Assembly (NCBI RefSeq): GCF_002163875.1
Contig: NZ_CP019333.1
Coordinates: forward strand, 2,052,864 to 2,116,863
Length of the DNA stretch: 64,000 bases
Direction of reading: 5' to 3'
Source: Gilvibacter sp. SZ-19
GTDB taxonomy: Bacteria; Bacteroidota; Bacteroidia; Flavobacteriales; Flavobacteriaceae
The notes under the pieces are model-generated. The model had not been told where the DNA came from, searched no databases, and worked only from the letters and a program-made list of their open reading frames with translations. The position numbers were made by a program, and so were the translations under genes. Numbering within the stretch: the first letter of the stretch is position 1; every line of letters begins with the position of its first letter. Shown here piece after piece: positions 32,848 through 36,917 of this stretch.

Positions 32848-33336
32848 TTATTTTTCCTTCAAAGATTTGGCACCTTCTTCTACTTTGATCTTTAGACCTT
32901 CTTTATAGGCAATGATCTTATCCAACACACATTTGTCATGAGCTCCGATGATCTGGGCTGCAAGGATCCCTGCATTTTTGGCACCGTCTAAGGCTACAGT
33001 AGCAACAGGTACGCCGCCGGGCATTTGCAAGATGGATAGCACCGAATCCCAACCGTCAATAGAGTTTCTTGATTTTACAGGTACGCCAATAACTGGTAGT
33101 GGTGATAGGGAAGCGATCATCCCTGGTAAGTGCGCTGCACCTCCAGCTCCGGCAATGATCACTGAAAAGCCGCGCTCGTGCGCATGTTTTCCGTAGTCAA
33201 AAAGTTTGTCTGGTGTTCTGTGTGCGGATACTATGTCCACTTCAACTTGAATGTCAAATCCAGCCAAAATATCAATGGCTTCTTGCATTACCGGCAGGTC
33301 ACTGGTGCTGCCCATTATGATTCCTACTTTACTCAT
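32848..33336 (-). CDS. purE: N5-carboxyaminoimidazole ribonucleotide mutase
   Basis: Class I PurE moves the carboxyl of N5-CAIR to C4 in de novo purine synthesis. GIIMGSTSDLPVM is the N-terminal phosphate-binding motif. SAHRTPDKL carries the catalytic His, and AGAGGAAHLPGMIA and PVIGVPVKS follow. Length 162 is normal. It overlaps the purK gene by 8 bases. Confidence 0.95.
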   Translation of the reverse strand: MSKVGIIMGSTSDLPVMQEAIDILAGFDIQVEVDIVSAHRTPDKLFDYGKHAHERGFSVIIAGAGGAAHLPGMIASLSPLPVIGVPVKSRNSIDGWDSVLSILQMPGGVPVATVALDGAKNAGILAAQIIGAHDKCVLDKIIAYKEGLKIKVEEGAKSLKEK

Positions 33337-34492
33337 GACTGCTTATTACGCGTATTTTTTCTTTTACTTCTTGAGCGATGCGTCTGGCCTCGGCCAGATT
33401 CTCGTTGGTGATGGTCACATGGCCCATCTTTCTAAAAGGGCGGGTCATCTTTTTGCCATAAATATGAGGGGTTACCCCAGGCAATGCCATAATCTCCGCA
33501 ATATTTTCATAGCGTACCTGGCCGGTATGCCCTTCGGCTCCTACCAAGTTAACCATAATTCCGCCAACCTTGCTGTCTGTATTCCCTAATGGCAAACCGA
33601 GCACGGCGCGCAGGTGTTGTTCGAATTGATTGGTAAAGCTCGCCTCTATACTGTAGTGACCACTATTGTGTGGGCGAGGCGCCACTTCGTTGACCAAGAT
33701 CTGATCGTCCTCTGTTTGGAAGAGTTCTACGGCCAAAAGTCCAACATGACCAAAGGCTGCGGATGCTTTTAGAGCGACTTCACGCGCCTTCTTTGCAACG
33801 GCGTCGTCAATACGAGCCGGGCAGATCACATACTCTACCTGATTGGCCTCCGGATGGAATTCCATCTCCACCACAGGGTAGCTCACAGCTTCGCCATTGG
33901 CAGAACGCGCTACGATCACAGCGAGTTCATTTTTGAAAGGAACCATCTTTTCTGCAATACAAGGTACATTGGCCAAAGCGTCCAGATCACTCAATTCACG
34001 AACTATCTTGACTCCCATACCGTCATAACCGCCCACACAGCTTTTCCAAACAAATGGAAGCTCCCAATTGTTGGCAGCTACCCAGCTTTTGGCCTCCTCA
34101 GTAGATTCAAAACGTTTATAGGGCGCTGTTGGAATTTCATGTGCAGCATAAAAGTCTTTTTGTACGCCTTTGTTTTGAATATTTCTTAGCGTTGCGGCCT
34201 GCGGATAGGTTTTAACACCTTCTGATTCTAGCTTTTCCAGAGCGTCCAGATTCACACCTTCTATCTCAATGGTGAGCACGTCCACATCTTTTCCGAAGTT
34301 GTAAACCGTATCAAAATCCATCAGATCGCCTTGAACAAAAGTGTCACAAGAAATGCGGCAAGGCGCCTCAGCGCTAGGGTCCAATACTTTTGTTTTAATG
34401 TCGAATTTGCGGGTGTCATACAGGAGCATTTTACCCAGTTGTCCTCCGCCTAGAATACCTAAAGTGAAGTTTGTAGAGAAATAATCGGTCAT
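33329..34492 (-). CDS. purK: N5-carboxyaminoimidazole ribonucleotide synthase
   Basis: PurK uses ATP and bicarbonate to make N5-CAIR for PurE. It is an ATP-grasp enzyme of 387 residues: GILGGGQLGKML at the N-terminus, FVWKSCVGGYDGMGVKIV as the ATP-binding loop, and NEVAPRPHNSGHYSIEA near the metal site. GLPLGNT and HIYGKKMTRPFRKMGHVT are typical of the C-terminal domain. It leads a purK-purE-peptidase operon and is divergent from the HPRT-Adk gene. Confidence 0.95.
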   Translation of the reverse strand: MTDYFSTNFTLGILGGGQLGKMLLYDTRKFDIKTKVLDPSAEAPCRISCDTFVQGDLMDFDTVYNFGKDVDVLTIEIEGVNLDALEKLESEGVKTYPQAATLRNIQNKGVQKDFYAAHEIPTAPYKRFESTEEAKSWVAANNWELPFVWKSCVGGYDGMGVKIVRELSDLDALANVPCIAEKMVPFKNELAVIVARSANGEAVSYPVVEMEFHPEANQVEYVICPARIDDAVAKKAREVALKASAAFGHVGLLAVELFQTEDDQILVNEVAPRPHNSGHYSIEASFTNQFEQHLRAVLGLPLGNTDSKVGGIMVNLVGAEGHTGQVRYENIAEIMALPGVTPHIYGKKMTRPFRKMGHVTITNENLAEARRIAQEVKEKIRVISSHE

Positions 34493-34739: not shown

Positions 34740-34747
34740 TATCTTTG
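34740..34747 (+). promoter_or_regulatory. -7 box of the HPRT-Adk gene
   Basis: TATCTTTG is an exact TAnnTTTG. TTA (34717-34719) lies 20 bases upstream as a weak -33 element. The TTG start codon is 27 bases downstream. Confidence 0.55.
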
Positions 34748-34774: not shown

Positions 34775-35881
34775 TTGATCACTCTAGGAGATAAGCAATT
34801 TGAAAAGTATTTGTCTGCAACGGATGTGCAGCATGCTGTAAACGGTGTGGCGGTGCGAATTGGAGACGATTTTAAAGATAAGAACCCAGTTTTTCTTGTG
34901 GTTTTGAATGGTGCTTTTTTCTTTGCTGCGGATCTAATCCAGCGTTTTACCTATCCTTGTGAGCTCAGCTTTATAAAAGTTGCCAGTTATGAAGGGCTGC
35001 ACAGTTCTGGAGATATCTCTACAGTTATGGGTGCTGAGCCTTCTCTGAAAGGAAGACATGTTATCGTGGTAGAAGACATAGTGGATTCTGGCAACACCAT
35101 TGAGGCAATTATTGAAATACTGAATCAGGAGCAGGTAGCTAGTTATGCTATAGCTTCGCTTTTCTATAAACCCGAAGCTTACTTAAAATCCTTTCCATTG
35201 GATTATGTAGGGATGGAAATAGAGGACCGTTTCATTGTTGGATACGGCTTGGACTACAACGGCTTGGGCAGAAACTTAAAGGACATTTACATTTTAAAAG
35301 CACAACAAATGACAAATCTCGTATTGTTTGGCCCTCCGGGAGCCGGAAAAGGAACACAAGCCGCATTGATCAAAGATCGTTACGAGCTGGTACACATCTC
35401 TACCGGAGACGTATTCCGTTACAATATGAAGAACAATACCGAGCTGGGACAAGCTGCAAAGGCCTATATGGACCGAGGCGACTTGGTACCCGATTCTTTG
35501 ACTATAGATATGCTGCGTGCAGAAGTGGAGAAGAACCCACAGGCTAAAGGCTTTATTTTTGATGGATTCCCAAGAACCGAAGCGCAAGCTGCCGCCTTGG
35601 ATGAGCTTTTGGAAAGCATGAATTCTTCGGTAAGTGGCTGTGTAGCCTTAGAGGTAGACACTGAGATCTTGGTGGAACGTTTGTTGGAACGCGGTAAGAC
35701 CAGCGGTCGTGCAGACGATCAGGATGAATCTAAGATCCGCAACCGTTTTGACGAATACAACGAAAAAACAGCGGTTTTAAAAGACTACTACCGCAAACAA
35801 GATAAGTTCCACGCTGTAGACGGCGTAGGTTCTATCGACGAGATCACCGCACGCTTAACAGCCGTGATCGATCAGTTATAA
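34775..35881 (+). CDS. Fused hypoxanthine phosphoribosyltransferase - adenylate kinase
   Basis: Two complete enzymes in one 368-residue frame. Residues 1 to about 178 are a purine phosphoribosyltransferase, with the PRPP loop VIVVEDIVDSGNTIEAI and the LNGAFFFAADL loop. From Met179 on lies an adenylate kinase: P-loop LFGPPGAGKGTQ, STGDVFRYN, GFPRTEAQA, and LERGKTSGRADDQ with the short lid. The start is TTG at 34775 (MITLGDKQFEKYL); no ATG is in frame before it. The fusion would join base salvage to adenine nucleotide balance. obgE follows after 22 bases. Confidence 0.93.
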   Translation: MITLGDKQFEKYLSATDVQHAVNGVAVRIGDDFKDKNPVFLVVLNGAFFFAADLIQRFTYPCELSFIKVASYEGLHSSGDISTVMGAEPSLKGRHVIVVEDIVDSGNTIEAIIEILNQEQVASYAIASLFYKPEAYLKSFPLDYVGMEIEDRFIVGYGLDYNGLGRNLKDIYILKAQQMTNLVLFGPPGAGKGTQAALIKDRYELVHISTGDVFRYNMKNNTELGQAAKAYMDRGDLVPDSLTIDMLRAEVEKNPQAKGFIFDGFPRTEAQAAALDELLESMNSSVSGCVALEVDTEILVERLLERGKTSGRADDQDESKIRNRFDEYNEKTAVLKDYYRKQDKFHAVDGVGSIDEITARLTAVIDQL

Positions 35882-35903: not shown

Positions 35904-36917
35904 ATGACAGAAGGCAACTTTGTAGACTATGTGAAGATACACGTTACTTCTGGTAAAGGTGGTAGGGGAAGTGCGCATTTGCACCGCGAAAAATACATTG
36001 CCAAAGGAGGTCCTGACGGCGGTGATGGCGGTAGAGGTGGACACGTGATCATTAGAGCGAACCCGAACTTTTGGACGCTTTATCACCTGAAATTCAAAAG
36101 GCACTTTAGAGCGGAACACGGCGAAAACGGAGGTAAGCAACGTTCTACCGGTGCCAACGGCCAAGACGTCATAATTGAGGTGCCACGCGGTACGGTGATT
36201 CGCAGAACTGAAGATCAGGAGATCTTGCACGAACTCACAGAAGCCAACCAAGAGATCATTATCGCAGAAGGTGGCAAAGGTGGATTGGGCAACTGGCATT
36301 TTAAAAGTGCAACTCGACAAACACCGCGTTATGCCCAGCCTGGTTTAGAAGGCGAGGAGAAGAATATTACCTTGGAGCTTAAAGTTCTAGCCGATGTTGG
36401 TTTGGTAGGCTTCCCCAATGCTGGGAAATCTACTTTGCTTTCTGTGATCACAGCGGCTAAGCCTAAAATTGCCGCTTACGAATTTACCACCCTAAAGCCC
36501 AATCTGGGTATTGTAGAGTACCGTGATTACCAAACCTTTGTAATGGCAGATATCCCAGGTATTATTGAGGGAGCTGCGGAGGGCAAGGGAATAGGCCATC
36601 GCTTTTTACGTCACATAGAGCGCAACTCCGTATTGCTGTTTTTGGTTCCTGCAGATGCAGACGATATCTACAAGCAGTACGAGATCTTGTTGGATGAACT
36701 CCGCAGATACAACCCAGAGCTCTTAGATAAAGAACGTCTGGTCGCCATTTCAAAGTCCGACATGCTTGACGACGAGCTCAAGGCAGAAATGAAGGCCGAA
36801 TTGGATGAGCAGTTCACCGATGTACCTTATCTTTTTATATCTTCGGTAGCACAAACTGGCTTAATGCCGCTTAAGGATGCGCTATGGAAAATGTTGAATA
36901 CTTCGACCGAAGAATAA
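35904..36917 (+). CDS. obgE: GTPase Obg/CgtA
   Basis: Obg binds the large ribosomal subunit and links GTP level to ribosome assembly. The glycine-rich Obg fold is at 1-160 ([28 protein letters not shown]). The G domain has [12 protein letters not shown] (G1), [14 protein letters not shown] (G3) and SKSDMLD (G4 variant of NKxD). At 337 residues it lacks the long C-terminal extension of some homologues. The next gene begins within its last codons. Confidence 0.95.

Follow-up and report, generated by a model that had tools for sequence, protein, structure and literature searches.

Organization of the hpt-adk locus

The window, which is the whole 64,000-nucleotide stretch analysed from the genome of Gilvibacter sp. 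SZ-19 (3.1 Mb, single contig), carries a fused hpt-adk frame on the forward strand (34775-35881; 368 amino acids, no internal stop codons). The frame starts with TTG (34775..34777); no in-frame ATG is present upstream, and in 147 of 165 fused relatives the column of this TTG held a start codon, mostly GTG or TTG.

The HPRT-like domain (residues 1-176; 34775..35302, forward strand) was delineated by PF00156, TIGR01203, and a fold match. The Pribosyltran family (PF00156) aligned to residues 18-161 with 88.3 bits (Pfam cut-off of 26.3). Over approximately residues 1-177, this part resembled HPRT/HGPRT (6-oxopurine phosphoribosyltransferase) in sequence and predicted fold, but it has no stop codon at its end, and its score against the NCBIfam equivalog TIGR01203 (147.1 bits) fell 2.9 bits below the cut-off of 150. 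Because this cut-off was narrowly missed, the domain is named HPRT-like, with the substrate left unspecified. The adenylate kinase (Adk) domain (residues 179-368 including the stop codon; 35309..35881, forward strand) was delineated by PF00406, NF001381, and a fold match; the ADK family (PF00406) aligned to residues 184-343 with 168.1 bits (Pfam cut-off of 26.8), and NF001381 passed its NCBIfam cut-off with 234.8 bits against 187. It is a whole bacterial Adk domain with the P-loop GPPGAGKGT, unlike free Adk enzymes in that it forms the C-terminal half of a longer frame and that one residue (Met179) precedes the usual first residue. The solved Adk structures nearest by sequence include 5g3y, 3cm0, and 2cdn. 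A sequence-only reading of the window had described complete phosphoribosyltransferase and Adk domains in one frame, and both parts indeed scored above the Pfam cut-offs.

The two parts meet at YILKAQQMTNLVLFG. Residues 173-178 of this joint (ILKAQQ; 35291..35308, forward strand) occupy variable columns and fall between the predicted strands 171-174 and 180-185. Across an alignment of 50 fused proteins, the acidic motif of the HPRT-like part (E100, D101, D104, G106, and T108) was invariant, and the P-loop of the Adk part was complete, with G186 and P188-T194 invariant; we take these residues to be the PRPP-binding motif and the P-loop, respectively. The Adk lid is presumably short, judging from the sequence. 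An AlphaFold model built from 50 fused proteins had a mean pLDDT of 86.5 and a pTM of 0.58, the latter value making the arrangement of the domains relative to each other unreliable. Approximately residues 1-178 of the model matched HPRT chains and 176-368 matched adenylate kinases (Z of 23.3-25.1 among the 50 matches shown), with the best HPRT chain reaching a Z of 25.1 and the Adk domain matching 3adk with a Z of 25.0 over 188 residues at 1.8 A. The fused chain is predicted to be a pair of enzymes, HPRT-like and adenylate kinase.

The octamer TATCTTTG (34740..34747, forward strand) upstream of the fused gene fits the pattern TA..TTTG, which we assume to be the Bacteroidota -7 promoter consensus. 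The two-part promoter pattern (TTTG 17-23 bases upstream of this element) gave no match, and the element is a candidate only. A sigma-70 promoter scan gave nothing of use for a member of the phylum Bacteroidota.

The fused gene holds the sole ADK-family (PF00406) match of the genome, and a search for a second adk elsewhere found none at the protein or Pfam level. Seven further places matched the phosphoribosyltransferase family, and the HPRT part as a query matched the fused gene alone. Downstream on the same strand lies a GTPase gene (35904..36917) that we take to be obg. On the reverse strand lie the divergent neighbours purK (33329..34492) and purE (32848..33336), named after the sequence-only reading, which had also pointed out the shared upstream region; 282 bases separate the start of purK (34492) from the TTG of the fused frame. 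In the family, an obg homologue was downstream on the same strand in 85/86 fused loci, 28/30 loci lacking the HPRT part, and 9/22 loci with adjacent genes, as well as in all 79 of the fused loci picked by likeness; a divergent purK was found in 73/86, 27/30, and 11/22 loci, respectively. These counts were taken from loci of 2-4 kb, and misses may lie out of range.

Distribution and history of the fusion

Among 120 genomes sampled from the family, hpt and adk were fused in 82, adjacent but separate in 7, and represented by adk without an adjoining hpt in 29; two genomes had no match. The sample contained 83 full-length matches, one of which has a TAA between its parts (G002/L215). As 82 of the 120 genomes carry the fusion, it is an ordinary architecture of the family, and the proposed single-chain frame with a stop-free joint is real, conserved, and common. 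Searches of open-licence PMC full text, including one on dual-start genes in general, retrieved nothing on this fused gene as judged largely by title, an absence that is weak evidence.

The wider comparison covered 250 loci, with Adk in 249 of them (166 fused, 41 adjacent, and 42 without hpt). Eighty loci had been picked for their likeness to the fused protein, and frequencies were therefore taken from the 120-genome sample alone. The 86-locus fused family set consisted of the 82 loci of that sample and four of a second sample; adding 79 loci picked by likeness gave 165 fused family rows. One fused gene (L146), the sole case found outside the family, came from another family of the order and was left out of the family counts. 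Long open frames at some split loci (e.g., 407-459 amino acids) were rejected as fusions, since those fetched were separate genes read from stop to stop. Adk-only loci at which the match seemingly reached into the HPRT tail were inspected by eye, and no recognisable HPRT remnant was present upstream.

In a FastTree phylogeny of Adk plus Obg, which has many weak forks and some rows without Obg (L250 and L151 were left off), all 217 family rows formed one clade. Fused rows occurred in both of the deepest family branches, with adjacent and HPRT-less rows scattered inside. Well-supported branches force at least nine changes of the fused label, a count that gives no direction. In outgroup pairs (L147-L149), hpt and adk are separated by 3 to 9 bases in multiples of three, so that a change in the stop codon could join the pair. 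The fusion is probably old.

In one of the 29 genomes having adk without an adjoining hpt, an HPRT match lies on a different contig. The query found no HPRT anywhere in the other 28, some of which are incomplete, and the HPRT salvage enzyme may have been lost repeatedly in the family. An HPRT-less clade beside Gilvibacter on the tree (L112, L116, L117, L118, L120, L121, and L124-L129) carries adk with an in-frame upstream leader of shared pattern, mostly MWxFxxxxF followed by basic residues, which may extend the N-terminus of the protein or mark a second start. One genome that carries the fused gene also has a divergent second Adk-like match (G102:C1:643779-644339, region L250) with 37% identity and one internal stop. 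Two fused loci, L245 and L246, have stop-to-stop frames of 465 and 432 codons, against 367-405 in the other fused loci of the 86-locus set.

Another fusion with an Adk domain at the C-terminus was seen in Bacteroidota outside the class of the window, where five loci (L152-L156) encode Adk-Adk tandem proteins of 396-435 amino acids, read from stop to stop. In the four of these that were read by eye, and unlike in the hpt-adk protein, the second domain has a degenerate P-loop (GxPGSGR instead of GPPGAGKG) and lacks Met at the position equivalent to Met179, which is L in three and R in one, with the Asn kept.

Start codon of the fused frame

The start codon of the fused frame is weak. It was GTG or TTG in 60 of the 86 loci, whereas at the same loci purE started with ATG in 61/61 rows (GTG/TTG in 0/61) and obg in 84/85 (GTG/TTG in 1/85). 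The start column of purK could not be aligned (59 of 73 rows had no start codon there), and purK was not used as a control. Separate hpt genes of the family started with ATG in 17 of 22 loci, and one likeness-picked pair has TTG. Among the 60 GTG/TTG loci, an in-frame ATG lies further upstream in seven and nearby downstream in one, and may be the true start there.

Met179 as a putative internal start

The sequence-only reading had also suggested that Met179 (ATG; 35309..35311, forward strand) could give a separate Adk by internal initiation. Across relatives, the frame through the joint is commonly open, residues 176-178 vary, and the ATG is kept. The Met179 codon was ATG in 164 of 165 fused family rows and GTT in one (L220). 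It is conserved beyond its neighbours: a single change was counted on the tree at Met179, against 33, 43, and 38 changes at residues 176, 177, and 178 and 10 at residue 180. As Met246 and Asn181 are equally invariant, the invariance of Met179 alone proves nothing. Of the 52 unfused family rows, 51 have ATG at the corresponding codon (the exception being L235); some of these rows also have an open frame upstream, so that this ATG is their presumed start. In the lineage without Met179, the fused frame starts with ATG, as it does in the neighbours L222, L013, and L025; among the four neighbours examined, only the window lacks an ATG there.

Initiation in Flavobacterium johnsoniae is reported to be promoted by A at -3, -6, -12, and -13 and by low structure (Baez et al. 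2019, PMC6847099). Before Met179, the share of A was 76% at -12 and 86% at -13, compared with 36-68% and 40-60%, respectively, at the obg, purE, and standalone adk starts. The wobble base of codon -5 falls at -13, and 27/29 Leu and 38/40 Lys codons there end in A (the A-ending share elsewhere is 0.48 for Leu and 0.73 for Lys). Position -12 opens a codon, and the residues most often encoded there (N, T, and K) force A; thus, only -13 represents a synonymous signal. At -3 (25%) and -6 (28%), A was not enriched before Met179, whereas it reached 57-71% and 46-70% at the obg, purE, and standalone adk starts; in the window, both positions are C. Of all the results, this missing A weighs most heavily against a strong start at Met179. 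The suggested Adk start is backed by its conservation, by synonymous A, and by low structure, and the lack of A enrichment at -3 and -6 speaks against it.

If only the full-length bifunctional chain were made, Met179 would owe its conservation to packing at the beginning of the first Adk strand, and the A-rich codons would have another role, for example in cotranslational folding at the domain boundary. The equal invariance of Met246 and Asn181, the lack of A enrichment at -3 and -6, and the position of Met179 at the border of predicted strand 180-185 are in keeping with this explanation, which we regard as improbable but worth some weight. The fold itself does not need Met179, because several bacterial Adks begin one residue later: in the fold matches, the first residue of the 1zin, 2oo7, and 5x6j chains aligned with residue 180 of the model. 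The L or R of the four Adk-Adk tandem rows read by eye, in which Asn is kept, likewise argues against a packing role. The distribution of adenines in the hpt tail, described below, also points away from a full-length chain alone and toward initiation at Met179.

Synonymous A excess and low structure upstream of Met179

In 85 genomes, the 20 bases upstream of Met179 had an A fraction of 0.62, compared with 0.43-0.54 upstream of the obg, purE, and standalone adk starts, 0.39 upstream of the fused HPRT start, and 0.31 before other Met codons of the fused genes. Predicted folding of 50 bases around Met179 averaged -3.0 kcal/mol, against -6.7 kcal/mol at other Met codons and -3.2 to -4.0 kcal/mol at standalone adk and obg starts. 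The mRNA at the joint was less structured than its synonymous resamplings in 74 of 85 genomes (147 of 340 for control sites).

Amino-acid make-up does not account for this A richness. In a test of seven-codon windows at 164 loci (79 picked by likeness), with the codon use of each locus as its reference, the 12 of 348 windows that ranked highest for synonymous A excess began without exception at codons -16 to -5. In 84 of 85 genomes, A-ending codons made up a larger share of the 14 codons upstream of Met179 than of the remaining gene. These 14 codons, -14 to -1 (35267..35308, forward strand), form a candidate ribosome landing region. The signal is noisier in single genes: ranked within each gene, the 14-codon joint window came first in 4, among the top ten in 33, and within the top 5% in 43 of 85 genes; in the gene of the window, it ranked 2 of 352 fourteen-codon windows for synonymous A excess. 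Single codons inside Adk also showed an A excess, with codon +20 equal to codon -5. The A excess was the same with ATG and GTG/TTG starts, and a search for a stronger internal A signal at loci with weak fused starts was negative.

The A excess of the hpt tail was 0.243 in fused genes (positive in 80/84), 0.169 in pairs with the adk start within 30 bases (18/22), and 0.056 in pairs with the adk start at least 40 bases away (12/18), the last being drawn largely from other lineages. It was -0.07 in the single lineage that lost the Met (GTT) and -0.019 in an upstream stretch of the fused genes that served as a control (positive in 35/84). As the excess weakens with longer spacers, it tracks the distance to the adk start and not the C-terminus of HPRT, contrary to what a role in the full-length chain alone would require. 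L145 and L209, in which the anchor motif is absent, were left out of this comparison, and L220 (GTT) was left out wherever ATG was required; the P-values treat related genomes as independent.

Separate adjacent genes in the outgroups and in several relatives would also fit start signals that are an unused relic of the unfused ancestor, an explanation that we consider very unlikely. Fused genes compared with one another are close to saturation at fourfold third bases (identity of 0.33 versus 0.28 expected by chance), so a relic signal should have faded, yet 84 of 85 genomes keep the A-ending codons. They are kept even in the seven genomes with a GC3 of at least 0.5 (A-ending codons of 0.75 at the joint versus 0.26 elsewhere). 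A sequencing error hiding a stop codon, by which the fusion would be an artefact, can be set aside with near certainty, as the same uninterrupted frame occurs in two Gilvibacter records of 93-94% identity and in 82 of the 120 family genomes.

Proposed expression of the fused gene and its meaning

The reading that we favour, and hold to be quite likely on the patterns of the sequence, is that the gene has two starts, a weak one for the HPRT-Adk chain and the internal Met179 for free Adk; the gene would then probably make a minor fusion plus free Adk. An old hpt-adk fusion would have arisen, probably via a lost hpt stop codon in a tight tandem, with the start codon of adk retained. The full-length chain would be translated from the weak TTG, whereas ribosomes landing on the 3' end of the hpt part, which is rich in A and weakly structured, would initiate directly at Met179 and produce free Adk. 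The sole Adk, presumably essential as Adk is in other bacteria, would thereby be made in excess of HPRT. The hpt stop codon would become nearly dispensable, which would account for the fused, adjacent, and HPRT-less states among relatives. The sequences themselves show the fusion and its spread, the kept ATG, the signals in synonymous sites and structure, and the weak start codons of the fused frame; in this scheme, we infer the use of the internal start, the ratio of the products, and the direction of the switches between fused and split states. The broader proposition that the fused gene is still in effect an overlapping pair throughout the family, with a weak GTG/TTG frame, most Adk made from the internal ATG, the landing signal written in synonymous hpt codons, and a near-neutral stop codon, is one on which we are evenly divided.

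Some bacterial genes, such as infB, clpB, and cheA, have an internal in-frame start that gives a second, shorter product. The hpt-adk gene would be like these in having two N-termini, here inferred, in a single frame. It would be unlike them in having an entire second enzyme as its short product and in having originated by the fusion of neighbours.

Channelling between the two activities, which the sequence-only reading had entertained, is rejected on pathway grounds. HPRT makes IMP or GMP, and Adk acts on AMP, ADP, and ATP; since neither product is the substrate of the other enzyme, channelling is unlikely. Putative co-regulation of HPRT and Adk by the fusion is plausible.

Gene fusions are commonly taken as a sign that two proteins act as one chain. 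In the conserved fusion described here, the second enzyme seems to have retained a start of its own, and it is this putative internal start with its conserved Met, not the fusion itself, that is of interest. If the separate Adk start is kept, the annotated fused frame would misstate the main product. The locus may also serve as a natural test of start-site determinants in bacteria without Shine-Dalgarno pairing, as its internal site combines A at -12 and -13 with low structure but shows no preference for A at -3 and -6.
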